Source of the DNA: Rhizobium sp. TH135
GTDB taxonomy: Bacteria > Pseudomonadota > Alphaproteobacteria > Rhizobiales > Rhizobiaceae
Length of the DNA stretch: 64,000 nucleotides
Direction of reading: 5' to 3'
NCBI RefSeq assembly: GCF_002855515.1
Contig: NZ_PKRP01000003.1
Span: 372,001 to 436,000, forward strand
Position numbers and translations under genes: made by a program. Below, piece by piece: positions 41,529-64,000 of the stretch (positions are counted from its first letter, which is position 1; every line of letters begins with the position of its first letter). A model generated the notes under the pieces. That model was given only the letters and a program-made list of their open reading frames with translations. It did not search any database and was not told where the DNA came from.

Positions 41529-41569
41529 TTGATCAAAATCAAGGAGGTCTTGTGCGCTGCGTCTAACCT
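41529..41569 (+). promoter_or_regulatory. FNR/FixK-type anaerobox with matching minus-10
   Basis: TTGATCAAAATCAA at 41529-41542 matches the FNR/FixK consensus TTGAT-N4-ATCAA exactly. A minus-10-like TAACCT lies at 41564-41569, which would put the box centre about 41.5 bases before a start near 41577, the geometry of FNR-activated class II promoters. It precedes the YdcH-like gene and, beyond it, lpdA. A weak hairpin (41502-41527) just before it could end the upstream transcript. Confidence 0.7.
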
Positions 41570-49288: not shown

Positions 49289-50424
49289 CGGCGAACGACA
49301 ACGCGGGCACCAATGGCCTCGCCATGGCCGTGCTGAACGCCATCCAGAACCCGGTGGTGATGGTCGACGCGAACGGCCATATCGCATTCGCCAATTGGGA
49401 GGCGGAAGCCTTCTTCGGCGCGAGTGCTTCCCATTTGGCGCGCTACCGCATCTCGACCTTCATTCCCTTCGGCAGTCCGCTGCTGTCGCTGATCGAACAG
49501 GTTCGCGAACGCCGCGCGCCTGTGAATGAATACCGCGTCGACCTGAGCTCGCCGCGTCTCGGCCAGGAAAAGCTGGTCGACCTTTATGTGGCGCCGGTCT
49601 TGAGCCAGCCCGGCAATGTGGTCGTGGTCTTCCAGGAACGCTCCATGGCCGACAAGATCGACCGTCAGCTGACCCATCGGGCCGCGGCCCGCTCCGTCAC
49701 CGGGCTCGCCTCCATGCTCGCCCACGAAATCAAGAACCCGCTGTCCGGCATCCGTGGGGCAGCCCAATTGCTCGAGACAGCGGTAACCGACGAAGACAGG
49801 GCACTGACCCGGCTGATCTGCGACGAGACCGACCGCATAGTCTCGCTGGTCGACCGCATGGAGGTTTTCTCCGACGAGCGCCCGGTCGACCGTCAATCGA
49901 TCAACATCCACTCTGTCCTCGATCAGGTGAAGGCCGTCGCCAAGGCAGGCTTTGCCCGCAACATCCGCATCACCGAAAATTACGACCCCTCTCTGCCGCC
50001 GGTCTTTGCCAACCGTGACCAGCTGGTGCAGGTCTTCCTCAACCTCGTCAAGAACGCTGCCGAAGCGATCGGCGAACGCTCCGATGGCGAGATCCAGCTG
50101 ACGACTGCCTATCGCCCGGGCATTCGCCTCTCGGTCGCGGGCTCCCGCGAGAAGATCTCGCTGCCACTCGAATTCTGCGTCCATGACAATGGGCCAGGCG
50201 TGCCGTCCGATCTGTTGCCGCATCTCTTCGATCCTTTCATCACGACGAAGACAAACGGCTCCGGTCTGGGGCTGGCGCTGGTGGCCAAAATCATCGGCGG
50301 CCATGGCGGCATCGTTGAATGCGACAGCCAGGCGAACCGCACCACTTTCCGGGTCCTCATGCCCATGTCGAAAGAGACAGCGCTCGACGATGCGCCTCTT
50401 GCCAAATCCACGGGAACGAACTGA
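49285..50424 (+). CDS. ntrB: Nitrogen regulation sensor kinase NtrB
   Basis: A 379-residue soluble histidine kinase sensing nitrogen status through PII. It has an N-terminal PAS domain (about 12-120), a dimerisation/phosphoacceptor helix with His147 in [20 protein letters not shown], and an ATPase domain with [12 protein letters not shown] (N box), [18 protein letters not shown] and [18 protein letters not shown]. It phosphorylates NtrC when nitrogen is scarce. The start is coupled to dusB (ATGA), and its stop overlaps the ntrC start (TGATG). Confidence 0.96.
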
Positions 50425-51875
50425 TGACGGCCACGATCCTTGTTGCAGATGACGATGCTGCGATCCGCACGGTGCTGAACCAGGCATTGAGCCGTGCAGG
50501 TTACGACGTCAGGATCACCTCGAACGCTGCCACCCTCTGGCGCTGGATTTCGGCAGGCGAGGGCGATCTGGTTGTGACCGACGTGGTCATGCCGGATGAA
50601 AACGCTTTCGACCTCCTGCCGCGCATCAAGAAGGCGCGGCCGGACCTGCCAGTTCTGGTCATGAGCGCCCAGAACACTTTCATGACTGCCATCAAGGCCT
50701 CCGAGAAGGGCGCCTATGACTACCTGCCTAAGCCCTTCGATCTCACCGAGCTGATCGCCATCATCGGTCGCGCGCTGTCGGAGCCGAAAAAGCGCCCGGC
50801 GCGTCTCGACGACGACATGCAGGACGGCATGCCGCTCGTCGGCCGCTCGGCCGCCATGCAGGAAATCTACCGCGTACTCGCCCGCCTGATGCAGACGGAC
50901 CTGACGCTGATGATCACCGGCGAATCGGGCACTGGTAAGGAATTGGTCGCCAAGGCGCTGCACGATTACGGCAAGCGCCGGAACGGTCCCTTCGTCGCGA
51001 TCAACATGGCCGCAATCCCGCGCGACCTGATCGAATCCGAACTCTTTGGCCACGAGAAGGGTGCCTTTACCGGCGCCCAGACCCGCTCCACTGGCCGTTT
51101 CGAGCAGGCCGAGGGCGGCACGCTCTTCCTCGACGAAATCGGCGACATGCCGATGGATGCCCAGACCCGTCTGCTTCGCGTCCTGCAGCAGGGCGAGTAC
51201 ACCACCGTTGGTGGCCGTACCCCGATCCGGACCGATGTCCGAATCGTCGCAGCCACCAACAAGGACCTGAAGCAGTCGATCAACCAGGGCCTCTTCCGCG
51301 AAGATCTCTATTATCGCCTGAACGTCGTGCCGTTGCGCCTGCCGCCGCTGCGCGACCGCGCCGAGGACATTCCGGATCTCGTCCGCCATTTCATCCAGCA
51401 GGGCGAAAAGGAAGGTCTCGATTCGAAGCGTTTCGACCACGAAGCGCTCGAAGTGATGAAGTCCTATGCCTGGCCGGGCAATGTCCGCGAGCTTGAGAAT
51501 GTGGTGCGCCGCCTCATGGCGCTTTATCCACAGGATGTGATCGCGCGTGAAATCGTCGAGCAGGAACTGCGTGCCGATGTCTCCGACAGCCCGATCGCCA
51601 AGGTCGGCATGCCCTCCGGCACGATGACGATCTCGCAGGCCGTCGAGGAGAACATGCGGACCTACTTCGCCTCGTTCGGCGACGCCCTCCCGCCGTCGGG
51701 CCTCTACGACCGTGTTCTGACGGAAATGGAATATCCGCTGATTCTCGCTGCCCTGACCGCCACCCGTGGTAATCAGATCAAGGCAGCCGATCTGCTCGGC
51801 CTAAATCGCAACACGCTGCGCAAGAAGATCCGGGAGCTGGGCGTCTCGGTCTATCGAAGCTCCCGCTCCGCTTGA
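50424..51875 (+). CDS. ntrC: Nitrogen response regulator NtrC
   Basis: A 483-residue sigma-54 activator. It has a receiver domain (1-120, phosphoacceptor Asp53 in VTDVVMPDE), a AAA+ domain with Walker A GESGTGKE, the sigma-54-contacting GAFTGA loop, Walker B LFLDEIGD, and a C-terminal Fis-type helix-turn-helix ([21 protein letters not shown]). It activates ammonium-assimilation genes. No sigma-54 promoter was recognised within the operon itself. Confidence 0.97.
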
Positions 51876-52054
51876 CAATTGCGGAACCGCCGTTGCAATT
51901 TCGCCACATTGCGTTGCTCAAAAGTCACGTCTCATCGTGATGGAACGTGGCCGTTCATGGCTTGCGATGTGACGAGCCTTGCAGAAACAAAGTCGACGGG
52001 AACCGCCACGCGGCCGCGTCAATAAGATCCGATTGCGCGGATCCGGGGGAAATG

Positions 52055-54319
52055 ATGGCACGCGTGAGGAACGCCGCCGCAGCAGATGTGGACACGCTGG
52101 CACACGACCGCCGCGCATCTTTTGCGCTGCCTGGTCTGCTGACCGCCGGCGGTGCGCTGCTCTGCGCATCCCTGACCCTGCCGATCCTGCTCGGCCTGAC
52201 CCCGATCGAGCCCACCTCCAGGGTGCTGGTGGCGTCGGCGGTCATCAATTCGCTCTTCATCGTCGGTCTGGTCTTCCTCATCGGCCGGGAAGTGATGCGC
52301 CTGTTCAAGGCGCGCAACCGTGGGCGTGCCGCCGCTCGCCTGCATGTCCGCATCGTCGCGCTCTTCTCCGTGATCGCGATCACGCCGGCGATTCTGGTCG
52401 CCATTTTCGCCTCGATCACGCTGAATGTCGGGCTGGATCGCTGGTTCTCGATCAGAACGCAGTCGATCGTTTCCTCGTCGATGAACATCGCCCAGGCCTA
52501 CATGATGGAGAATGCCAGCTACCTTCAGGGCCAGACGATCTCCATGGCGAACGATCTGGAGCGCAATCGCGCGCTCTTTTATCTCGATCGTACCGGCTTC
52601 GTGGAGCTTATGACCCGCCAGGCGCGCGGTCGCGGCATGCTCGGCGCCTTCCTGGTGCGGGAAGATGGTTCTGCGATCACTCAGGCTGACATCGATACGG
52701 AAAAGCCTCTGCCGGCGATTCCCCGGGACGCGCTTGCGAGCGCCTCGGCCGGTCAGCCGACCTTGATCCCGCCTGGTATCACCAATCTCGTCGGGGCCAT
52801 CATCAAGCTCGACAGCCTGTCGGGAACCTTCCTCTACACCATCAGAGCCGTTGACCCGAAGGTCATGCAGGCGATGCGCCAGATGGAAGAAAACACCGCG
52901 GAATACCAGTCGATGGAGGATGGCCGAACAACGCTGCAGATCGCGTTTGCCATTCTCTATCTGGGTTTCGCACTGATCGTGCTGCTTGCCGCCATCTGGA
53001 CCGCGATCGCCGTCGCGGACCGCATCGTGCGGCCGATCCGCCTGTTGATCGGTGCCGCCGATAGTATCGCGTCCGGCAATCTCAATGTCCTAGTGCCCGT
53101 GCGCGCGGCAGACGGCGACGTCGGCAGCCTGTCGCGGACCTTCAACAAGATGGTCTCGCAGATCCGCTCGCAGCGCGATGAGATCCTGGAAGCCAAGGAC
53201 GAGGTCGACGACCGCCGCCGCTTTATCGAAGCGGTTCTCTCGGGCGTTACGGCCGCCGTCATCGGCGTCGAGGACGATGGTATCATCACGATCGTCAATC
53301 CTTCTGCCGAATACTTCCTCGCACTACCCGGCGAACAGCTGATGGGGCAGAAGCTCGCGCTCGTCGCACCTGAGGTCGACCGCGTGCTGGCCGAAGCCGC
53401 TGTCCGCCATCGCGGCGAATATCGCGAGCAGATCAACATGATCCGAGGCGGCAAGGAACGCACCCTCAACGTCCAGGTGACGCGGGAAGAGACGCGGGGC
53501 TCGGTCGATTCCTACGTCATCACCCTCGACGACATCACCGATCTGGTCGTTGCCCAGCGCTCCACCGCCTGGGCCGATGTGGCGCGTCGCATCGCCCACG
53601 AAATCAAGAACCCGCTCACTCCGATCCAGCTCTCGGCGGAGCGGTTGAAGCGCCGCTATGGCAAGCAGATCGCCGAGGATGACAAGGCTGTCTTCAACCA
53701 GTGCACGGACACGATCGTGCGCCAGGTCGAGGACATCGGCCGCATGGTCGACGAGTTCTCCGCCTTTGCCCGGATGCCGAAGCCGACGAAACAGCGTTCA
53801 GACCTGCGAGAGATCCTGACGGATGCCGTCTTCCTGCGCGAGATCGGCAGCGCCGACATCGAATTCCAGCGCAGCTTCGGCGATGAGCCTCTGGAGGGCA
53901 GCTTCGACGCCCGCATGCTGGCCCAGGCCGTCGGCAACATCGTCAAGAATGCCGTCGAATCGATCGAGGCAGTGCCGAAGGAAGAACTGGGCGACCACGG
54001 CAAGATCCTGGTCCGCTCCACGTTCGATCAAGAACTCGACCGGTTCACGGTCGACGTCATCGACAACGGCCGCGGCCTGCCGACGGAGAACCGGCACCGC
54101 ATTCTCGAACCCTACATGACGATGCGCGAGAAAGGCACCGGCCTTGGCCTCGCGATCGTGAAGAAGATCATTGAAGAGCATGGCGGGCAGCTTGAGCTGC
54201 ACGACGCACCGGTGGATTTCGACCGGGGCAGGGGTGCGATGATCCGCATCATCCTGCCGCGCGCAGACGCCCCCGCCATGGTCACTGAAAGCGATAAGGA
54301 AAAGGTCTATGGCCTCTGA
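52055..54319 (+). CDS. ntrY: Membrane sensor kinase NtrY
   Basis: A 754-residue integral histidine kinase. There are three to four transmembrane helices (about 25-48, 58-80, 100-125 and 290-320), a periplasmic sensor region between the last two, a HAMP domain (RPIRLLIGAADSIASGNLNV), a PAS domain, then the kinase core with [45 protein letters not shown] and GTGLGLAIVKKI. NtrY/NtrX link nitrogen, redox and envelope control in alphaproteobacteria. The start is the second of two adjacent ATGs, with GGGGGA upstream. Confidence 0.95.
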   Translation: MARVRNAAAADVDTLAHDRRASFALPGLLTAGGALLCASLTLPILLGLTPIEPTSRVLVASAVINSLFIVGLVFLIGREVMRLFKARNRGRAAARLHVRIVALFSVIAITPAILVAIFASITLNVGLDRWFSIRTQSIVSSSMNIAQAYMMENASYLQGQTISMANDLERNRALFYLDRTGFVELMTRQARGRGMLGAFLVREDGSAITQADIDTEKPLPAIPRDALASASAGQPTLIPPGITNLVGAIIKLDSLSGTFLYTIRAVDPKVMQAMRQMEENTAEYQSMEDGRTTLQIAFAILYLGFALIVLLAAIWTAIAVADRIVRPIRLLIGAADSIASGNLNVLVPVRAADGDVGSLSRTFNKMVSQIRSQRDEILEAKDEVDDRRRFIEAVLSGVTAAVIGVEDDGIITIVNPSAEYFLALPGEQLMGQKLALVAPEVDRVLAEAAVRHRGEYREQINMIRGGKERTLNVQVTREETRGSVDSYVITLDDITDLVVAQRSTAWADVARRIAHEIKNPLTPIQLSAERLKRRYGKQIAEDDKAVFNQCTDTIVRQVEDIGRMVDEFSAFARMPKPTKQRSDLREILTDAVFLREIGSADIEFQRSFGDEPLEGSFDARMLAQAVGNIVKNAVESIEAVPKEELGDHGKILVRSTFDQELDRFTVDVIDNGRGLPTENRHRILEPYMTMREKGTGLGLAIVKKIIEEHGGQLELHDAPVDFDRGRGAMIRIILPRADAPAMVTESDKEKVYGL

Positions 54320-55673
54320 TATTCTTGTAGTCGACGACGAAGAGGACATTCGCGAGATCGTCTCCGGTATTCTGAGCGACGAGGGACATGAGACCCGCAC
54401 CGCCCATGATGCCGACAGTGCGCTTGCCGCCATATCCGACCGTGTCCCGCGTCTGGTCTTCCTCGACATCTGGATGCAGGGCAGCCGGCTTGATGGCCTT
54501 TCGCTGCTAGACGAAATCAAGGCACGCCATCCGGATCTGCCGGTCGTGATGATCTCCGGTCACGGCAATATCGAGACGGCTGTCTCGGCCATCAAGCGCG
54601 GCGCTTTCGACTTCATCGAAAAGCCCTTCAAGGCCGATCGCCTGATCCTGATCGCCGAGCGCGCGCTGGAGAACTCCAAGCTCAAGCGCGAGGTCTCCGA
54701 ACTCAAGCGCCGCACCGGTGACGCGATCGAACTGATCGGCACCTCGGTCGCCGTCTCGCAACTCCGCCAAACCATCGAGAAGGTCGCGCCGACAAACAGC
54801 CGCATCATGATCTTCGGCCCCTCGGGTTCCGGCAAGGAACTGGTCGCCCGCATGATCCACAAGCGATCGGCCCGCTCGGTCGGGCCGTTCGTATCGCTGA
54901 ATGCGGCCGCGATCACGCCGGACCGGATGGAGATGGCGCTGTTCGGCACCGAAGGCACGCCCGGTCAGCCCCGCCGCATCGGTGCGCTGGAAGAAGCCCA
55001 TCGCGGCATTCTCTATCTCGACGAGATCGGCGAAATGCCGCGTGAGACCCAGAACAAGATTCTGCGCGTGCTCGTCGAGCAGCAGTTCGAACGCATCGGC
55101 GGCTCCAAGCGCGTCAAGGTGGATGTGCGCATCATCTCGTCGAGCGCCTATAATCTCGAAAGCCTGATCGCCGAGGGCCGCTTCCGGGAAGACCTCTTCC
55201 ATCGCCTGGCCGTCGTGCCGGTGAAGGTGCCAGCGCTTGCCGAGCGCCGCGAGGACATTCCCTTCCTCGTCGACATGTTCATGCGCCAGGTCTCCGAGCA
55301 GGCCGGCATCCGCCAGCGCAAGATCGGCGAGGACGCGATGGCGGTCCTGCAGGCCAATGACTGGCCAGGCAACATCCGGCAGCTCCGCAACAACATCGAA
55401 CGCCTGATGATCCTCGCCCAGGGCGACAGCCCCGATGCGCCGATCACCGCCGAAATGCTGCCGCAGGATCTTTCCGACATGCTGCCGAAGGTTTCCGCCC
55501 GCAACGACACGCATATCATGACGCTGCCCCTGCGCGAGGCGCGCGAAATGTTCGAACGAGACTACCTGATCGCCCAGATCAACCGTTTCGGTGGCAACAT
55601 TTCACGCACGGCGGAATTCGTCGGTATGGAACGCTCGGCCCTCCATCGCAAACTGAAGTCGCTTGGCGTATAA
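54309..55673 (+). CDS. ntrX: Response regulator NtrX
   Basis: A 454-residue NtrC-family regulator with receiver Asp53 in FLDIWMQ, Walker A GPSGSGKE, Walker B LYLDEIGE and a C-terminal Fis-type helix-turn-helix (ISRTAEFVGMERSALHRKLKSLG). The sigma-54 contact loop GAFTGA is absent; the corresponding stretch reads FGTEGTPGQPRRIG. This fits known alphaproteobacterial NtrX proteins that do not act through sigma-54. It overlaps ntrY by 11 bases. Confidence 0.95.
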   Translation: MASDILVVDDEEDIREIVSGILSDEGHETRTAHDADSALAAISDRVPRLVFLDIWMQGSRLDGLSLLDEIKARHPDLPVVMISGHGNIETAVSAIKRGAFDFIEKPFKADRLILIAERALENSKLKREVSELKRRTGDAIELIGTSVAVSQLRQTIEKVAPTNSRIMIFGPSGSGKELVARMIHKRSARSVGPFVSLNAAAITPDRMEMALFGTEGTPGQPRRIGALEEAHRGILYLDEIGEMPRETQNKILRVLVEQQFERIGGSKRVKVDVRIISSSAYNLESLIAEGRFREDLFHRLAVVPVKVPALAERREDIPFLVDMFMRQVSEQAGIRQRKIGEDAMAVLQANDWPGNIRQLRNNIERLMILAQGDSPDAPITAEMLPQDLSDMLPKVSARNDTHIMTLPLREAREMFERDYLIAQINRFGGNISRTAEFVGMERSALHRKLKSLGV

Positions 55674-55722
55674 GCGGTCGAACCGAGTCCGGTAAAACCG
55701 ATCCTGGGGCAGGAAGCATAGA

Positions 55723-57099
55723 ATGAAAGTCATCATCTGCGGCGCGGGCCAGGTCGGTTACGGCATTGCCGAGCGGCTCTCCCAGGAAGGCAACGACGTC
55801 TCGGTTATCGACACCTCCGCCTCGCTCGTCTCGCATATCACCGAGACGCTGGATGTCAGCGGTTATGTCGGCCACGGCGCCCATCCTGATGTGCTGGCGA
55901 GGGCCGGCGCCGACCAGGCCGAAATGCTGATTGCCGTCACGCTCTACGACGAAATCAACATGACCGCCTGCCAGGTCGCCCATTCGCTGTTCAACGTCCC
56001 GACCAAGATCGCGCGTATTCGCTCGCAGAACTATCTGCGGCCGGAATATTCCGATCTCTTCAGCCGTGACAACCTGCCGATCGACGTGACCATTTCGCCG
56101 GAAATCGAGGTCGGCAAAATGGTTCTGCGTCGCATTTCCTTCCCCGGCGCCACCGACATCGTGCGCTTCGCCGACGACCATATCGCCATGCTCGCCATCG
56201 AATGCATGGAAGATTGCCCTGTCGTCGACACTCCGCTCAATCAACTGAGTGAACTCTTTCCGGACCTCATGGCGACGGTCTGCGCGATCTACCGCAACGG
56301 CCGCCTGAATGTCGTGCGCTCGCAGGATCACTTGCAGGTCGGCGACCTCGCCTATGTCATCTGCCAGCGCGATCACGCCCGCCGCACGCTCGGTCTTTTC
56401 GGCCATGAAGAGCAGGAAGCCGGTCGCATCGTCATCGCTGGCGGCGGCAATATCGGCTACTACGTCGCCCGCGCCATTGAGGAGATGCAGCCGAAGACCC
56501 GCCTGAAGATCATCGAGAACGACCGTGAGCGCGCGCTTGCGGTCTCCGACCAGCTGAAGGACGGCATCGTCCTGCACGGATCGGCACTCGACCAGAACAT
56601 CCTCCAGCAGGCCGACATCCAGGATGCCGATCTGATGGTGACGCTCACCAACAACGACCAGACCAATATCCTGAGTGCCGCCATGGCCAAGCGCCTCGGC
56701 TGCAAGTCCGGCATGGCGCTGATCAACAGCCCGTCTTTCCACGAACTGGCGACGTCGATCGGGATCGATGCCCACATTAACCCGCGCGCCGTCACCATTT
56801 CCCGCGTCTTGCAGCACGTCCGCAAGGGCCGCATTCGCGCCGTCTATGCCGTCCAGAAGGGCAAGGCCGAGGTGATTGAGGCCGAGGCGCTGGAAACCTC
56901 GCCGCTCGTCGGCAAGCCCTTCCGGGAGCTTGAATTGCCGCCAGGCCTGCGCATCGGCGCCATCCTGCGCGACAAGACCGTGATCCGCCCCGATGGCGAC
57001 ACCAAGATCAAGGCCAAGGACCGCGTGGTTCTCTTCGCCGCTGCAGAGGCCGTTCGCCATGTCGAGCAGCTCTTCCGCGTTTCGATCCAGTATTTCTGA
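55723..57099 (+). CDS. trkA: Trk potassium uptake regulator TrkA
   Basis: A 458-residue peripheral membrane protein with two RCK (TrkA-N plus TrkA-C) units. NAD-binding loops are IICGAGQVGYGIAERL at the N terminus and IVIAGGGNIGYYVARAIEE at about residue 230. It gates the TrkH/TrkG potassium channel, which is not encoded here. The gene follows ntrX by 49 bases in the classical order ntrYX-trkA. Confidence 0.95.
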   Translation: MKVIICGAGQVGYGIAERLSQEGNDVSVIDTSASLVSHITETLDVSGYVGHGAHPDVLARAGADQAEMLIAVTLYDEINMTACQVAHSLFNVPTKIARIRSQNYLRPEYSDLFSRDNLPIDVTISPEIEVGKMVLRRISFPGATDIVRFADDHIAMLAIECMEDCPVVDTPLNQLSELFPDLMATVCAIYRNGRLNVVRSQDHLQVGDLAYVICQRDHARRTLGLFGHEEQEAGRIVIAGGGNIGYYVARAIEEMQPKTRLKIIENDRERALAVSDQLKDGIVLHGSALDQNILQQADIQDADLMVTLTNNDQTNILSAAMAKRLGCKSGMALINSPSFHELATSIGIDAHINPRAVTISRVLQHVRKGRIRAVYAVQKGKAEVIEAEALETSPLVGKPFRELELPPGLRIGAILRDKTVIRPDGDTKIKAKDRVVLFAAAEAVRHVEQLFRVSIQYF

Positions 57100-57113
57100 A
57101 GGTTCACAACCCC

Positions 57114-57977
57114 ATGCCGCGCATTGCCTATGTCAACGGTCGCTATCTGCCGCATTCCGAGGCGGGCGTGCATATCGAGGATCGCGGCTATCAATTCGCC
57201 GACGGTGTCTACGAGGTCTGTGAAATCCGCCACGGTGTCATCGTCGATCTGACCCGGCATCTGGATCGCCTGGATCGCTCTCTGTCGGAGCTTGCCATGA
57301 GGCGCCCGATGAGCCGCGCCGCACTCACCCAGGTCATCCGCGAGGTCGCCCGCCGCAACCGGGTGAAAAACGGCCTCTTTTATCTCCAGGTGACGCGCGG
57401 CGTCGCCCGCCGCGACCACGTCTATCCGTCGGCGGAAACCCCGCCGAGCCTCGTCATCACAGCCAAGATCACCGATCCGGCGGTGATTGCGACGAAGAAC
57501 GAAAAGGGCCTGAAGGCAATCACCCTTCCCGACAATCGATGGGACCGAGTCGATATAAAGACTGTCGGACTTCTGCCCAACGCCATGGCCCGCCAGGCGG
57601 CAAAGGAAAAGGGTGCACAGGAAGCCATCTACGTCGACGCCCGGGGCATGGTCACCGAAGGCGCGGCCACCAATGTCTGGATCGTCGACAAGGACGGCGT
57701 CCTTGTCACCCGTCCCGCAGAACAGGGCATCCTGCGCGGCATCACCCGCACCGGGCTCATGGATGTGACGGCAAAGCTTGGCATCAGCGTGCAGGAACGC
57801 GAGTTTTCCCGTGAAGAGATGCTCTCGGCCCGCGAAGTCTTTATCACCGCCGCAACCAGCATCTGCTTCCCGATCGTCGAGATCGATGGTCAGCCGATCG
57901 CCAACGGCCATCCCGGCGCCATGGCCGAACGGATCCGTTCCGCCTTTTTCGACGTTGCGGAAAAGACGGTGATTTGA
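57114..57977 (+). CDS. dat: D-amino acid aminotransferase (class IV PLP enzyme)
   Basis: A 287-residue fold type IV aminotransferase. The PLP lysine is Lys149 in VDIKTVGLLPN, and the N-terminal EDRGYQFADGVYEVCEIRHG, GAQEAIYVD and TEGAATNVWIV segments are typical of D-alanine aminotransferase. Branched-chain aminotransferase is less likely because the length and N terminus fit DAAT. It starts 14 bases after trkA. Confidence 0.9.
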   Translation: MPRIAYVNGRYLPHSEAGVHIEDRGYQFADGVYEVCEIRHGVIVDLTRHLDRLDRSLSELAMRRPMSRAALTQVIREVARRNRVKNGLFYLQVTRGVARRDHVYPSAETPPSLVITAKITDPAVIATKNEKGLKAITLPDNRWDRVDIKTVGLLPNAMARQAAKEKGAQEAIYVDARGMVTEGAATNVWIVDKDGVLVTRPAEQGILRGITRTGLMDVTAKLGISVQEREFSREEMLSAREVFITAATSICFPIVEIDGQPIANGHPGAMAERIRSAFFDVAEKTVI

Positions 57978-58087
57978 TACCACGTTTTTTCGGCGGAGGG
58001 GCGAGGGGCCAATTCCCAGAGCTTACCAGCTGGCAACAATAATCACACCGGTCGCAAAGCACCGGCAAGAAAGAAAGAAGCGGCGCC

Positions 58088-58339
58088 ATGGCGGAACGTT
58101 CTCAGAATCTGCAGGATCTTTTCCTCAACACCGTACGAAAGCAGAAGATTTCGCTGACGATCTTCCTGATCAACGGCGTAAAACTCACCGGTGTCGTGAC
58201 ATCCTTCGACAATTTCTGTGTTCTCCTGCGTCGCGACGGCCATTCCCAGTTGGTCTACAAGCACGCCATCTCGACCATCATGCCCGGCCAGCCGATGACG
58301 ATGTTCGAGAACGACGAAGCCTCTTCCGGACAGGACTGA
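58088..58339 (+). CDS. hfq: RNA chaperone Hfq
   Basis: An 83-residue Sm-like hexamer subunit that pairs small RNAs with mRNAs. The Sm1 region is [35 protein letters not shown], and the Sm2 motif is YKHAISTI. The short acidic tail ends SSGQD. It is preceded by a 110-base leader with a GAAAGAAAGAA ribosome site. hflX follows 67 bases later. It would serve any small RNAs of the strain, including the candidate at 1895-1991. Confidence 0.97.
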
Positions 58340-58406
58340 GATCATCACCAGCCGCGATACAAAGAACGAATCGATCATCCCGGAGGACGAAAAGCGCCGG
58401 GATGAC

Positions 58407-59741
58407 ATGCGGGCGCTCGTGCTCGTTCCCGTCCTGAAGCAGGCGAAGGCGCAAGCACTGCCCGAAGGCGCGCCGCCAGCCCCGAGCCGCTCGAATGAAG
58501 CGCGTCTCGAAGAGGCGATCGGCCTTGCCCGCGCCATCGATCTCACCATCGTCCAAGGCTTGATCGTCACAGTCAGCCAGCCTCGACCGGCAACACTCAT
58601 GGGATCCGGCAAGATCGCCGAAGTGAAAGCGCTGCTCGACGAGTTCGATGCAGGCCTCGTCATCGTCGATCATCCGCTCACCCCGGTTCAGCAGCGCAAT
58701 CTTGAGAAGGAATGGGGCGCCAAGGTCATCGACCGCACGGGCCTGATCCTCGAAATCTTCGGTCGCCGCGCCTCCACAAAAGAAGGCACGCTGCAGGTCG
58801 ACCTCGCGCATCTGAATTATCAGAAGGGCCGTCTGGTCCGTTCCTGGACCCACCTTGAGCGTCAGCGCGGTGGTGCAGGCTTCATGGGTGGACCGGGTGA
58901 AACACAGATCGAAGCAGACCGGCGCATGCTGCAGGACAAGATCATCAAGCTCGAGCGCGAGCTCGAACAGGTAGTCCGCACCCGCCAGCTCCACCGTGCC
59001 AAGCGCCGCAAGGTGCCGCATCCGATCGTGGCGCTCGTCGGCTACACCAATGCCGGCAAGTCGACGCTCTTCAACCGCATCACCGGTGCGGGCGTGCTCG
59101 CCGAAGACATGCTGTTCGCAACGCTCGATCCGACGCTCCGCCGCATGAAACTGCCGCATGGCCGCACCGTGATCATGTCGGACACCGTCGGTTTCATCTC
59201 CGACCTGCCCACCCACCTCGTTGCCGCCTTCCGCGCGACGCTCGAAGAGGTCCTGGAAGCCGATCTCATCCTCCATGTCCGCGACATGTCGGATCCGGAC
59301 AATGGCGCACAGTCGGCCGATGTCCTGCGCATCCTCGACGATCTCGGTATCGACGAGAAGGAGCGCTCGGAACGGATCATCGAGATCTGGAACAAGATCG
59401 ACCGCCTCGACCCGGAGAACCACGACGGCATTCTGCAGAAGGCAGCCGGTCGCGCAAACGTCCTGCCGGTCTCCGCCATAACGGGCGAGGGTGTCGACAC
59501 GCTGCTCGATATCATCTCGCAGCGCCTCTCCGGCGTGTTGACCGAGGCGACGATCACCATTCCCGCCGACAAACATGCCGTGATCTCCTGGCTCTACGAG
59601 AACGCGGTCGTCGATGGCCGCGAGGATCACGAGGACGGCTCCGTCAGCCTCGACGTGCGCCTGACCGATCGCCAGGCCAACGAGTTGGAGCGTAAGCTCG
59701 GCGGACCGCAGCCCGCGCCTAAGGAAGACTGGGAGCGCTGA
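58407..59741 (+). CDS. hflX: GTPase HflX
   Basis: A 444-residue ribosome-associated GTPase. The N-terminal HflX domain includes TLMGSGKIAEVKALLDE and DHPLTPVQQRNLEKEWGAKVIDRTGLILEIFGRRA. A glycine-rich QRGGAGFMGGPGETQIEADRR and coiled coil come next, then the G domain with VGYTNAGKST (G1) and SDTVGFISDLP (G3). The frame stays open for 22 codons upstream of the chosen ATG, back to the hfq stop, and encodes a plausible charged stretch but no ordinary start codon. It is the last gene before the bch pair. Confidence 0.94.
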   Translation: MRALVLVPVLKQAKAQALPEGAPPAPSRSNEARLEEAIGLARAIDLTIVQGLIVTVSQPRPATLMGSGKIAEVKALLDEFDAGLVIVDHPLTPVQQRNLEKEWGAKVIDRTGLILEIFGRRASTKEGTLQVDLAHLNYQKGRLVRSWTHLERQRGGAGFMGGPGETQIEADRRMLQDKIIKLERELEQVVRTRQLHRAKRRKVPHPIVALVGYTNAGKSTLFNRITGAGVLAEDMLFATLDPTLRRMKLPHGRTVIMSDTVGFISDLPTHLVAAFRATLEEVLEADLILHVRDMSDPDNGAQSADVLRILDDLGIDEKERSERIIEIWNKIDRLDPENHDGILQKAAGRANVLPVSAITGEGVDTLLDIISQRLSGVLTEATITIPADKHAVISWLYENAVVDGREDHEDGSVSLDVRLTDRQANELERKLGGPQPAPKEDWER

Positions 59742-59760
59742 CCAAAGGCGTGATGGCCTC

Positions 59761-59774
59761 TTGATCCAGGTCAA
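59761..59774 (+). promoter_or_regulatory. FNR/FixK-type box of bchE
   Basis: TTGATCCAGGTCAA matches the TTGAT-N4-RTCAA box of FNR/FnrL/FixK regulators. Its centre would lie 41.5 bases before a start near 59809, with a weak minus-10 (TCAACT, 59796-59801). The spacing to the minus-10 is the same as at the YdcH promoter. FNR-type control of bchE is known in Rhodobacter. Confidence 0.65.
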
Positions 59775-59788
59775 CTGATCCCGCCGCC

Positions 59789-59816
59789 ATGTGTGTCAAC
59801 TTTTGTTTACACACAT
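59789..59816 (+). promoter_or_regulatory. PpsR/CrtJ-type operator of bchE
   Basis: TGTCAACTTTTGTTTACA (59794-59811) is an exact TGT-N12-ACA site. It sits inside a larger dyad with 12-base arms, ATGTGTGTCAAC and GTTTACACACAT, one mismatch and a TTTT spacer. PpsR/CrtJ repress photosynthesis genes in the presence of oxygen by binding such sites. The dyad overlaps the predicted minus-10 and start of bchE transcription and ends 11 bases before the bchE ATG. Confidence 0.7.
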
Positions 59817-59827
59817 GGGAGGTGGTC

Positions 59828-61453
59828 ATGCGCGTCGTCTTCATTCATCCGAACTATCATTCCGGCGGCGCCGAGATCGCCGGCAACTGGCCACCCGCCT
59901 GGGTCGCCTATCTCGGTGGGGCGCTGAAGTCGGCAGGCTTCACCGACATCCATTTCCTTGATGCGATGACCAACGACATGACCGAGGATCGGCTGCGCGA
60001 CGAACTCTGCCGCCTGCAACCGGATATCATCGGCTGCACGGCTATCACCCCGTCGATCTACATGGCCGAGCGCTGCCTGGAGATCGCAAAGGAAGTCTGC
60101 CCTCACGCGCTCCGTGTCCTCGGCGGCATCCATGCCACCTTCATGTACCAGCAGGTGCTGACCGAGGCGCCTTACATCGACGTGATCGTCCGCGGCGAGG
60201 GCGAGGAGATTATCGTCGAACTCGCCCGCGCCTTTGCCGCTGGAAACTGGAAGGAGGCGAGGGCGGGCATCAAGGGCCTCGCCTATAGCACCGACGACGA
60301 CAAGATCATCGCAACGCCCGCCGCCCCAACCGTGAAGAACTTCGATGCCGTCGACCCGGACTGGACGCTGCTCGAATGGGAACAATACATCTACGTGCCG
60401 CTCGGCGTGCGCGTGGCCATTCCGAACATGGCGCGCGGCTGCCCCTTCACCTGCTCCTTCTGCTCGCAATGGAAGTTCTGGCGCGACTATCGCATCCGCG
60501 ACCCGAAAAAGGTGGTCGACGAGATCGAAAAGCTGGTCAACGACCATCAGGTCGGCTTCTTCATCCTCGCCGACGAGGAGCCCACCATCAACCGCAAGAA
60601 GTTCATCGCCTTCTGCGAGGAGCTGATCGCTCGTGGCCTGCCCAACAGGGTGAAATGGGGCATCAACACCCGCGTCACCGACATCATCCGCGACGAGGAA
60701 TATCTGGCGCTCTATCGCAAGGCCGGCCTCGTCCATGTCTCACTCGGCACGGAAGCCGCCGCCCAGCTGAAGCTCGATCGCTTCAACAAGGAGACCAAGG
60801 TCGCTGAGAACAAGAAGGCGATCCGCCTGCTGCGCGAGGCCGACATCTTCACCGAAGCCCAGTTCATCGTCGGCCTGGAAAACGAGACGGCGGAGACACT
60901 CGAGGAAACCTATCGCATGGCGCGCGACTGGAACCCGGATCTCGCCAACTGGGCCATGTACACGCCCTGGCCCTTCTCCCCGCTGTTTCAGGAGTTGGGC
61001 GACAAGGTCGAGATCTTCGACTTCTCGAAATACAATTTCGTCACGCCGATTATGAAACCCGATGCCATGGACCGCGCCGAACTGCTCGACCGGGTCATGA
61101 ACAATTACCGCCGCTTCTACATGATCAAGGCGCTCTTCCACTACCCCTGGCGCGGCAAGGGCTTTCGGCGGCGGTATCTTCTCGGCTGTCTCAAGGCCTT
61201 CATGAAAGCCGGCTTCGAGCGGAAATTCTACGATCTGGGCAAGCACAATTACTGGGGCCCGCAGTCAAAGGATAAGGTCGATTTCGGCTTCGACATGACC
61301 CGCAAGATCGCACCGGCTCAGATGGATGACTGGCAGGCGGCCTCTGAGCGAGCGAGCCAGCTACGTGCCCGCAAGGCCGGCGAGGCGGAAGAGGCGCGGA
61401 CACCCGTCCTTGCCTGCGGCGGAGGGCCGGAGAGCCACGATGCCCACGTCTGA
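59828..61453 (+). CDS. bchE: Anaerobic Mg-protoporphyrin IX monomethyl ester cyclase BchE
   Basis: A 541-residue radical SAM enzyme of bacteriochlorophyll synthesis that forms the isocyclic ring E without oxygen, using water as oxygen source. It has an N-terminal cobalamin-binding domain (about 1-170: [30 protein letters not shown]), the radical SAM cluster Cys205, Cys209, Cys212 in [17 protein letters not shown], and a C-terminal region with [14 protein letters not shown]. The start at MRVVFIH has a GGGAGG ribosome site; an in-frame ATG at 59789 lies inside the operator and is rejected. It overlaps bchJ by 14 bases. Such a gene is unexpected in a Rhizobiaceae core region. Confidence 0.93.
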
Positions 61454-62177
61454 CAGCAGCTTGGCGCGACCGTACGACCACGATGTCGCAGATGGTGTCC
61501 CAGAAGCCAGATCGCCAGCCCGGATCGGCCCGAATGCCATCATCCAGACGGGACAGGCGCTCGCCGCGCTGTTTGGCGACGAGACGGCGCGTATGATCTT
61601 CGACCGAGCGGGAATCGGCCATCGTTTCGTCGATCCACCCGGCACGATGCTGGATGAACGAGAGCCTCAGCGGCTCTTCGCCGTGCTCTGTGATACCTTG
61701 TCGGATCAGGACGCCACCCGCGTCTTGGCGCAAGCCGGTGACCGCACGGGCCATTATCTGCTAGTCAATCGCATTCCGAAGCCGGCTCGCTGGCTGCTGC
61801 CGCGTCTGCCGACTGCCATTTCTGAGCGGCTGCTTAGCCGCGCCATCTCCGCCCATGCCTGGACCTTTGCCGGCAGCGGCCGGTTCTCGGGCCAAGTGCG
61901 GGGCTGTAGGCGGCCGGTCGTTCAGCTTGCGATCCAGAACAACCCCCTGGCAACCCCCGGCTGCCCCTGGCATGGCGCCGTCTTCGAACGCCTCTTCGCC
62001 ACCTTGACCGCAACCCAAGTCTCGGTCCTGCACCCCCGCTGCCAAGCCAAGGGCAACGACTGCTGCGAATGGACGATTACGGGTGCGACAGGGTCGCTGC
62101 AGTCCGCCCGAATGTCTCGGAGAGCCGCAGCCGACCGACCGGATCGAGAAGATCGCCCGTCACAAGCGTCGAGATGA
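61440..62177 (+). CDS. bchJ: Bacteriochlorophyll synthesis protein BchJ (V4R domain)
   Basis: A 245-residue protein with a V4R (4-vinyl reductase) domain. The signature cysteines are in [16 protein letters not shown] (Cys175) and [16 protein letters not shown] (Cys201, Cys208, Cys209). BchJ was first called a vinyl reductase; later work assigned that step to BciA/BciB, so BchJ is now seen as an accessory or substrate-binding factor. Translation is coupled to bchE. The V4R fold ends at about residue 213, exactly where the frame enters the opposite-strand monooxygenase gene. The last 32 residues are therefore probably a read-through tail. Confidence 0.85.
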
Positions 62178-63294
62178 TGGATCGCACGCCTGGCAATGTC
62201 GTGATGGGCGCGATCAGATGATCCCTAAGGGTAGGCAGCAGACGGCTGTCCGATTGGTAGAAGGGCGTCAGCACCCGACTGAGGAACTGGTAGCTGCGCA
62301 CATGCATCTGTCTTTTCCGCAGATGCCGCGCGATCGCCGCGTCGACATTCTCTGCGTGGACGAGGGCCGAGGCGAGCGATGCAGCGTCGAGCAGCGCCAT
62401 GTTCGCGCCTTGGCCGAGCTGAGGGCTTGTCGCATGCCAGGCATCACCGATCTTCAGCGCATGCCGCCCGATCACCGGCGGGCGGGTCTGGTGGCGATAG
62501 CGCGCATGAATAGGTTCGGCGACAGCCGCTAGCGGAAGCGCATCGGGCCAGAGCTTGCCCACCGCCTCCAGCCACGCGTCGCGGCCAGCCTTGACCCATT
62601 CGGGATGGTCAGCCGTGCGCAGGCTCCAGAAGAAGGTCGCCATGGCGGGTGCCCCTTCGCGAGTGGTCCCGACCGGCAGCACACCGGCCATGCATGAGGC
62701 ACGGTCATAGCGCTGTTCGAGCAGGTTCTCCTGGAACGGCCCGCCATCGGGGAAGGGCACCGTTGCCCAGAGCGCGCCATAACTGAGTTCGCTATCCGGC
62801 CGACTGCCGATCGGCGAATTGGCCCCCATGGCATCGATCACAAGGTCTGCTTGCGGTGAACGCGCACCATCCTGGAAGACGAGGCGGGCACGAGGCCCCG
62901 GCTCAATACCGCTGATCCGCGCCGATGCCTCGAAAGTCACACCGGCTGCGCGCGCTGCCTCGAACAAGGTGTTGAACAGAGCCACCCGCTGGACAGCGAT
63001 CCCGAATTCGCCGGACCGGTAGCGCACGTCGAGCACTGGCTTGCCGCCGTCCTTCAACCGTCCGACCATCCGGTCGATGCGTCGCCCGCGTGCGGCAACC
63101 GGATCGAGCAGACCCATGGCCGCAAGAACCTGAGCTCCCGTCGGCTGCAGCACGAAGCCGGAGCCCACCGGACGGGGCGCATCCATCTGGTCGTAGAGTG
63201 TCACGGAGGCGCCGAACCGGGCGAGCATGGTGCCGAGAGCCAGTCCACCGACGCCAGCGCCTGCAATGGCCACATCAAGTCCAGTGAGCTTCAT
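62077..63294 (-). CDS. FAD-dependent monooxygenase (UbiH/salicylate hydroxylase-like)
   Basis: A 405-residue class A flavin monooxygenase. The Rossmann motif VAIAGAGVGGLALGTMLARFG lies at residues 8-28, the DG-type motif is ADLVIDAMGANSPIG, and the GD motif is KIGDAWHATSPQLGQGANMALLDA near residue 290. The substrate is an aromatic or quinone-like ring but cannot be specified. Its start is 6 bases after the mazG stop, so the two are coupled. Its 3' end overlaps bchJ on the other strand by 101 bases. A role in pigment or quinone synthesis is a guess only. Confidence 0.85.
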   Translation of the reverse strand: MKLTGLDVAIAGAGVGGLALGTMLARFGASVTLYDQMDAPRPVGSGFVLQPTGAQVLAAMGLLDPVAARGRRIDRMVGRLKDGGKPVLDVRYRSGEFGIAVQRVALFNTLFEAARAAGVTFEASARISGIEPGPRARLVFQDGARSPQADLVIDAMGANSPIGSRPDSELSYGALWATVPFPDGGPFQENLLEQRYDRASCMAGVLPVGTTREGAPAMATFFWSLRTADHPEWVKAGRDAWLEAVGKLWPDALPLAAVAEPIHARYRHQTRPPVIGRHALKIGDAWHATSPQLGQGANMALLDAASLASALVHAENVDAAIARHLRKRQMHVRSYQFLSRVLTPFYQSDSRLLPTLRDHLIAPITTLPGVRSIISTLVTGDLLDPVGRLRLSETFGRTAATLSHP

Positions 63295-63300
63295 GCTGGT

Positions 63301-64000
63301 TCAACCAATTTGCCGCTGGATGCTTTTTGCTGCCTGCCACAGCTCCTCCATGCGTTCCAAGGAAGCATCGACCAACGTCTCACCTGATGCCTGAAGAGAC
63401 GTTTCTATATGTCTGAATCGATTGCGGAACTTTGTATTCGTTCCGCGCAGTGCCTGTTCCGGCTCCGCACCCACATGCCGGCCGATATTGACCAATGCGA
63501 AGATCAGATCGCCGAGCTCGTCCTTGACCTTGTCAGGCTTGTTTTCGGCCAGCGCCTCGCGCAATTCGCCGATCTCCTCCTCGACCTTGTCGAGAATGGG
63601 GGCAGCCTCCGACCAGTCGAAGCCGACCTTGGCCGCACGCTCCTGCAGCTTCAAAGCTTCTGTGAGTGCCGGAAAGGAGCGCTGCACCGAGCCGAGATAG
63701 CCGGTATCAGGATCATCAGCCGAGCCGCGGGCCGCGCGCCTTGCGAGACGTTCCGCCTTCTCCTGTTGCTTGATCATGTCCCACTGTGCCTTCACCGCCT
63801 CCGGCGTATCGGCATCGGATCGCGCAAACACATGCGGATGCCGCCGGATCATCTTGCGTGTGATGGCTTCGACGACGTCGCCGAAATTGAACTGTCCGGA
63901 CTCCTCGGCAATCCGTGCGTGGAAGACCACCTGCAGCAAAAGATCGCCCAGCTCCTCGCAGAGATCATCCGGATCCTTGCGCTCGATCGCATCCGCCACT
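63301..64000 (-). CDS. mazG: Nucleoside triphosphate pyrophosphohydrolase MazG (N terminus beyond window)
   Basis: At least 233 codons of MazG, which hydrolyses non-canonical NTPs to NMP and pyrophosphate; the family is about 270 residues, so roughly the first 40 lie outside the window. The first MazG domain shows CEELGDLLLQVVFHARIAEE and KMIRRHPHVFA. The second shows VEEEIGELREALAENKPDKVKDELGDLIFALVNIGRHVGAEPEQALRGTNTKFRNRFRHIE. Both EExxE and ExxD metal motifs are intact. It is convergent with hflX and bchEJ. Confidence 0.93.
   Translation of the reverse strand, partial: VADAIERKDPDDLCEELGDLLLQVVFHARIAEESGQFNFGDVVEAITRKMIRRHPHVFARSDADTPEAVKAQWDMIKQQEKAERLARRAARGSADDPDTGYLGSVQRSFPALTEALKLQERAAKVGFDWSEAAPILDKVEEEIGELREALAENKPDKVKDELGDLIFALVNIGRHVGAEPEQALRGTNTKFRNRFRHIETSLQASGETLVDASLERMEELWQAAKSIQRQIG

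Follow-up and report, generated by a model that had tools for sequence, protein, structure and literature searches.

An FNR-type box and a PpsR-type dyad at a recurrent spacing in front of bchE in a Rhizobium genome

The stretch 59761-59818 of the window, the 64,000 nucleotides of Rhizobium sp. TH135 that were analysed here, is best explained, with a probability of roughly 80%, as the bchEJ promoter of a Rhizobium-like phototroph under low-oxygen activation and PpsR repression. The original prediction of a composite FNR/PpsR arrangement in front of bchE is confirmed, and the FNR-type box that it claimed upstream of the gene is present (Table 1). At low oxygen an FnrL-like (or FixK-like) protein would bind this box, centred at about -41.5, and recruit RNA polymerase by class II activation, and PpsR in its repressing state would bind the dyad over the -10 element and the start and block transcription. 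The operator may derive from a tandem PpsR operator of two 18-bp dyads 7 bp apart, with an FNR box laid over the upper dyad and sharing its TGTCAA; in the window the upper dyad would have decayed and the lower one been retained. The window promoter belongs to the known FnrL plus PpsR type. For a fused FNR/PpsR operator that shares a half-site and repeatedly loses a dyad, no description was found in searches of the open-access literature, as distinct from older Rubrivivax and Rhodobacter work on bchE.

Table 1. Features of the bchE promoter region, with the flanking genes and ppsR; positions are those of the window unless prefixed
Feature	Position	Strand	Details
FNR/FixK-type box TTGATCCAGGTCAA	59761-59774	+	1 mismatch to TTGATNNNNATCAA
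PpsR/CrtJ-type box TGTCAACTTTTGTTTACA	59794-59811	.	exact match to TGTMAANNNNNNTTKACA; lower position of a tandem PpsR operator
Extended dyad around the PpsR core	59787-59818	.	14-nt arms; outer pairs unconserved in relatives
Predicted -10, CAACTT, inside the PpsR box	59797-59802	+	FNR start +36 to +41
Predicted transcription start	59809	+	FNR start +48, FNR centre -41.5
Ribosome-binding site GGGAGGTGG	59817-59825	+	invariant in 10 aligned loci including the window
bchE	59828-61453	+	TIGR02026, 838.7 bits against a cut-off of 481.35
bchJ	61440-62177	+	TIGR02019, 162 bits against a cut-off of 74.3; overlaps the end of bchE
hflX	58407-59741	+	TIGR03156, 446.6 bits; upstream neighbour, outside the switch
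ppsR	C6:878746-880068		283 bits against a cut-off of 275; PAS domains and Fis-type HTH

The FNR-type box fits the class pattern TTGAT-N4-ATCAA with one mismatch and is one of two sites in the window within one mismatch of TTGATNNNNATCAA, there being 30 at up to two mismatches against 17.9 expected. The PpsR-type box agrees exactly with the palindrome TGT-N12-ACA in its extended form, TGTcAA...TTgACA, and in a scan of the window for TGTMAANNNNNNTTKACA it was the sole match with fewer than three mismatches; since there were 12 matches at up to three mismatches against 22 expected, only the exact match stands out. The dyad around it is real and holds the full PpsR core, but the 12-base arms that had been claimed are the inner part of arms of 14 nt each (59787-59800 and 59805-59818), which are 93% complementary with one mismatch and enclose a 4-nt loop (CCATGTGTGTCAAC-TTTT-GTTTACACACATGG). 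Only one TGT-N12-ACA lies within 59201-60400, not two dyads 7-8 bp apart, and because Table 2 of an R. sphaeroides PpsR ChIP-seq study also holds rows with a single motif (PMC4344238), the single dyad lowers the claim to a classical tandem operator and not that to PpsR control.

The gene behind these sites lies above the cut-off of the BchE model and encodes radical SAM and B12-binding domains (PF04055, PF02310), and bchE and bchJ are probably in one operon. The start of bchE is most likely the ATG at 59828 behind GGGAGGTGG, rather than the ATG at 59789 within the dyad, because TIGR02026 already matches from residue 2 when the protein is read from 59828 and because GGGAGGTGG and this ATG are identical in the window and nine relatives. 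The bchEJ genes of the window do not lie in the photosynthesis gene cluster: they are flanked by hflX on one side and by a FAD-monooxygenase/mazG pair on the other (58407-63999). The combination of hflX upstream and mazG downstream of bchE recurs in nine of the 80 best relatives, with the FAD-monooxygenase matched in six of the nine, and the Cereibacter-type order ppsR-bchE-bchJ-bchG is found in eight of the 80. The window genome has ppsR and then bchG, with the PpsR box of bchG itself between them, and bchEJ probably left the cluster along with its promoter, as we infer. BchE was detected in 8 of 199 genomes of the family, that of the window included.

The arrangement of the two sites was compared across the window and 80 relatives, the best 80 of 579 confirmed matches, all 81 loci being counted. 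Within 150 bp upstream of bchE an FNR box (up to one mismatch to TTGATN4RTCAA) was found in 71 of the 81 loci and a PpsR box (up to two mismatches) in 74. Measured from FNR start to PpsR start, a distance of 33 bp, which is that of the window, occurred in 38/81 loci, 8 bp in 39/81, both in 11/81 and either in 66/81, counts that come from related loci, the window and nine relatives (10/81) forming a close Rhizobiaceae group and many of the others also being kin. When the upstream regions were shuffled by mononucleotide 100 times, no shuffle gave a spacing of 33 bp and none gave 8 bp in more than one case. A further 14 loci were considered, from which four that were 100% copies of loci among the 81 were left out; in the remaining ten bchE-family genes, which include L143 (93% identical to L067) and L137 (31% identical to the window BchE), the same thresholds gave a spacing of 8 or 33 bp in six and neither in four, as compared with neither in 15 of the 81. 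A BchE tree built by a quick method requires at least 27 changes among seven promoter classes, and its well-supported branches alone force nine changes for the class with 33 bp only and six for that with 8 bp only.

Closer to the window, an alignment of ten loci (the window and nine relatives of the Rhizobiaceae group) has nearly invariant FNR half-sites and PpsR core and a variable spacer: both half-sites are identical throughout, save that a single locus has A in place of the G of GTCAA, and in the nine nearest loci both boxes and the 33-bp spacing are kept as the intervening bases drift. This retention, together with an intact BchE above cut-off, supports the earlier argument that bchE is functional and regulated as a photosynthesis gene, and it speaks for bchEJ being a functioning photosynthesis operon under regulation, despite its place outside the cluster. 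The 8-or-33-bp rule should also make the control of bchE readable from sequence.

Tandem PpsR dyads seven or eight bases apart are a known form (PMC2654016), and the difference between the two spacings, 33 - 8 = 25 bp, is what two 18-bp dyads separated by 7 bp would give. Because this offset fits the tandem geometry, the 8-bp and 33-bp classes are best read, from their sequences, as the upper and the lower dyad of a single operator whose upper dyad is overlaid by the FNR box. In the pattern TTGATNNNTGTCAAN6TTGACA the TGTCAA serves the FNR box and the upper PpsR dyad alike, and comparison with the relatives suggests that the activator box was added to an ordinary paired repressor operator, over its upper half. 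A residual lower dyad (a TGT/ACA core with up to one mismatch, taken as the best of offsets 32-34) was found in 14 of the 28 8-only loci, against 1.4% in shuffles. At the window promoter no upper dyad is left and the lower one matches exactly; the window lineage shows the FNR box and lower dyad only. It appears likely that proteobacterial bchE promoters have one composite operator of which lineages have repeatedly lost either dyad, keeping the same low-oxygen logic by competition of FNR and PpsR for shared bases in the 8-bp type and by blocking of the -10 in the 33-bp type, to which the window belongs; the order of events in the evolution of the operator is one that we infer. The 8-bp and 33-bp promoters offer a natural series in which competition between activator and repressor can be set against promoter occlusion. 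A better single site as compensation for a lost dyad was also considered and holds for the distal position only: distal sites are better when single than when paired (means of 0.68 and 1.27 mismatches, permutation p 0.007), and the proximal site is not significantly better in single-dyad loci (p 0.21, in a test that excluded the window's nine near relatives).

The position of the transcription start was approached through a TANNNT element, which stands at FNR+35/36 in 14 of the 28 8-only promoters, as compared with no more than 6 in any of 500 shuffles. It is there in 3 of the 27 33-only promoters and in 3 of the 11 with both dyads. Because the element is rare in the last two classes, the evidence for a -10 comes from the 8-only class. 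If TANNNT is read as the -10, the start falls at FNR+48 and the FNR centre at -41.5, which is the class II position of FNR promoters. On this spacing, and on the -10-like element in relatives, the start in the window would lie at 59809 and the lower dyad (59794-59811) would span about -15 to +3. The contention that the dyad covers the -10 and a start near 59809 is therefore in keeping with the TANNNT spacing of the relatives, but both elements are invisible from consensus alone, a simple consensus scan of 59700-59860 having found no sigma-70 promoter and CAACTT being a poor -10. The related contention, that the FNR box lies where an activator should, is in the same case, as the position at -41.5 would follow from the -10-like element of the 8-only promoters. 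The TTGACA of the 8-bp type was rejected as a -35 hexamer, since TANNNT begins just 9-10 bp beyond it and at 16-18 bp in none of the 28 8-only promoters.

The original prediction depended on a genome with ppsR and with fnr or fixK, and ppsR, FnrL-like and FixK-like genes are all present; ppsR and the same box at photosynthesis genes occur together in this one genome. The cluster genes detected comprise bchCXYZ, pufL, puhABC, bchM, bchN, bchG, bchP and ppsR. The gene of the oxygen-dependent cyclase, acsF, was found as well (C6:863912-864901, 491 bits), and bchE is therefore the second, oxygen-independent cyclase of the genome. The promoter hints at the way in which a cell with two cyclases, one that requires oxygen and one that does not, could reserve the latter for low oxygen by means of two sites in about 50 bases. 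The genome has 24 matches to HTH_Crp_2, nine of which exceed the family cut-off. One Crp/Fnr-type regulator (L039) has CRSCEARHGGLC near its N-terminus, a Cys cluster of the kind typical of FNR; it is most like FnrL, and is called FnrL-like because its score of 221.7 bits is under the cut-off of 300 of the curated model NF045989. Its gene adjoins hemN, and an FNR-type box (C8:613770-613783, L024) lies at the hemN start beside it. One activator may be common to hemN and bchE.

The activator could instead be a FixK- or CrpK-like protein that has no Fe-S cluster, in which case the oxygen signal would arrive via another sensor and not through FNR directly. The two FixK-like proteins among the Crp-type matches (L037 and L040) have no Cys cluster, both being below the curated FixK cut-off, the predicted target sequences of FNR, FixK and DNR are described as virtually identical (PMC2908626), and in R. 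sphaeroides CrpK is also reported to drive bchE (PMC4263372). This is nevertheless judged unlikely, if far from negligible, in view of the FnrL-like gene with its Cys cluster and FNR box beside hemN, and of the bchE orthologue set (RSP0281), which is placed in the predicted conserved alphaproteobacterial FNR regulon and starred there as bound by FnrL in R. sphaeroides (PMC2908626). The passages of that work (Dufour et al. 2010) drawn on here contain neither the spacing to a PpsR dyad nor the sharing of a half-site (PMC2908626).

Activation by an FnrL-like protein combined with repression by PpsR has a counterpart in the bchEJGP promoter of R. sphaeroides (Cereibacter), which like the window has an FNR-type and a PpsR box. 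The parts of the published work considered here give the motif TGTCAACTGAAATGGACACA at bchEJ from PpsR ChIP-seq (PMC4344238) and bchEJGP among the finds of FnrL ChIP-seq (PMC4263372), and FnrL-driven bchE-lacZ expression fell by about 90% when the T of the TCAA at -57 was substituted (PMC4263372); in global expression, unlike in the lacZ fusions, bchE was without positive FnrL dependence (PMC4263372). The TCAA of the window likewise begins at -57. A PpsR box with the letters of TGTCAACTGAAATGGACACA follows the FNR box at a spacing of 33 bp in two loci, L121 and L123 (-34/-33), which are relatives of R. sphaeroides and not R. sphaeroides itself, and in these two loci bchE comes after ppsR and before bchJ and bchG, whereas the window has bchEJ between hflX and the FAD-monooxygenase/mazG pair. 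Unlike the window with its one dyad, the bchEJ ChIP peak of R. sphaeroides is listed with a second PpsR motif (PMC4344238). A further likeness is to bchC of R. capsulatus, where TGT-N12-ACA dyads 8 bp apart (PMC6199135) lie with the lower over the -10 and the upper over the -35, the lower CrtJ palindrome occupying -21 to -4 (PMC5362033). The window dyad is also predicted to lie over the -10, about 6 bp farther downstream than the lower palindrome of bchC if the predicted start is taken, but bchC has both dyads and the window has an FNR box in the upper position, the upper dyad being gone. Protein binding and AND-NOT logic at the window promoter would follow by analogy with R. sphaeroides, in which the papers have both factors acting at equivalent sites, and the earlier proposal of such a gate thus finds support in the comparison and in the Rhodobacter work, as far as logic can be read across.

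A different role for PpsR has to be weighed, that of a two-way regulator tuned by redox state or light at the dyad, possibly with a B12-binding partner of the AerR/PpaA type encoded upstream of ppsR. The available accounts state that CrtJ remains on R. capsulatus bchE in oxic and photosynthetic cells alike, anaerobic growth included (PMC5362033), so that release from DNA may not be the switch, and that AerR isoforms shift bchEJGP expression in both directions (PMC6199135); in the window genome a B12-binding domain is weakly matched by the ORF preceding ppsR (E 0.0085, short of the Pfam cut-off). Set against this are the lie of the dyad over the predicted -10 and start, a position from which a bound repressor should keep polymerase out, and the bchEJ row of Table 2 of the R. 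sphaeroides study, which gives a PpsR expression change of -9.60 (PMC4344238), and a two-way PpsR is considered a doubtful alternative to plain repression.

The dyad could also be imagined as forming, in the leader RNA of bchE, a hairpin that masks the ribosome-binding site, and the stretch does fold well as RNA (-27.9 kcal/mol, z -3.16). The predicted start, however, lies inside the dyad, and what the ten aligned loci keep is the PpsR core: the outer six pairs are each broken in one to five of the ten, one inner pair is unpaired in eight of the ten, and covariation is not above that of shuffles. No Rfam family was found in 50000-64000 at gathering scores. With the core kept, the outer pairs broken and the covariation no higher than in shuffles, the dyad fits a protein-binding site, and the hairpin, rejected on covariation across the window and nine relatives, is highly improbable. 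That both boxes are chance matches, or the dyad the terminator of hflX, is very unlikely indeed because of the conservation, for although bare TGT-N12-ACA is common and the FNR box has one mismatch, no terminator-like site was found, a fixed spacing occurs in 66 of the 81 loci (the window and best 80 relatives), and the exact 33-bp composite was met once in 385 genomes, at the window site.

PpsR repression of bchE through a specific box also agrees with the distribution of sites in the genome, provided that the extended box is used. The bare TGT-N12-ACA, the motif named in the original prediction, is not informative in itself: it is unenriched genome-wide (401 forward matches, when the reversed control has 408) and was dropped as evidence for PpsR. 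The extended box TGTMAANNNNNNTTKACA, in contrast, has seven exact matches in the 4.8 Mb genome, and ten at up to one mismatch against three in the control. Five of the seven, including those preceding bchC and bchG, lie in the photosynthesis cluster (C6:840-886 kb), one is at bchE and one at C7:331579, so that the suggested scan for PpsR sites near bch and puf genes was informative with the extended box and uninformative with the bare motif. The remaining box, TGTCAACTTCGGTTGACA (C7:331579-331596, L006:1501-1518), is a perfect extended PpsR-like palindrome in an intergenic position near a DUF6671 gene and an ORF that we take to be phasin-like. It was not counted as a likely PpsR target, as no photosynthesis gene was recognised among the ORFs of the 3-kb locus (one ORF being searched against Pfam), and the palindrome may instead be a hairpin with a TTCG loop.

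FNR-type sites are enriched genome-wide: TTGATN4RTCAA was matched 21 times on the forward strand and 19 times on the reverse, where the reversed control gave 1 and 2. In the window a perfect FNR-type palindrome, TTGATCAAAATCAA (41529-41542, L020), lies about 390 bp upstream of an ORF that presumably encodes a protein resembling dihydrolipoamide dehydrogenase. When the genome lists of extended PpsR boxes and FNR sites were compared, the two came close together solely at bchE. In the 70-kb cluster stretch there was no FNR box (up to one mismatch) within 120 bp of a PpsR box (up to two), and for the 20 exact FNR-type sites that were read on both strands, out of 26 distinct exact sites in the genome, a PpsR box stood at +33 only at bchE and at +8 nowhere. 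Within what was searched, bchE is the sole promoter of the genome with both boxes.

The search of 385 genomes of the class with the exact 33-bp composite gave no match in the reversed control, and the exact pattern was absent from the seven other genomes among them that have a match to the BchE model, from which it follows that the strict pattern alone fails to find bchE promoters. The exact 8-bp composite had two matches in the 385 genomes, both in genomes without a BchE match. An 8-bp-type FNR/PpsR composite, TTGATCTGTGTCAAAGCGGATGGACA, stands before another gene at L139:1501-1526; the genome is of the same class and has no match to BchE.
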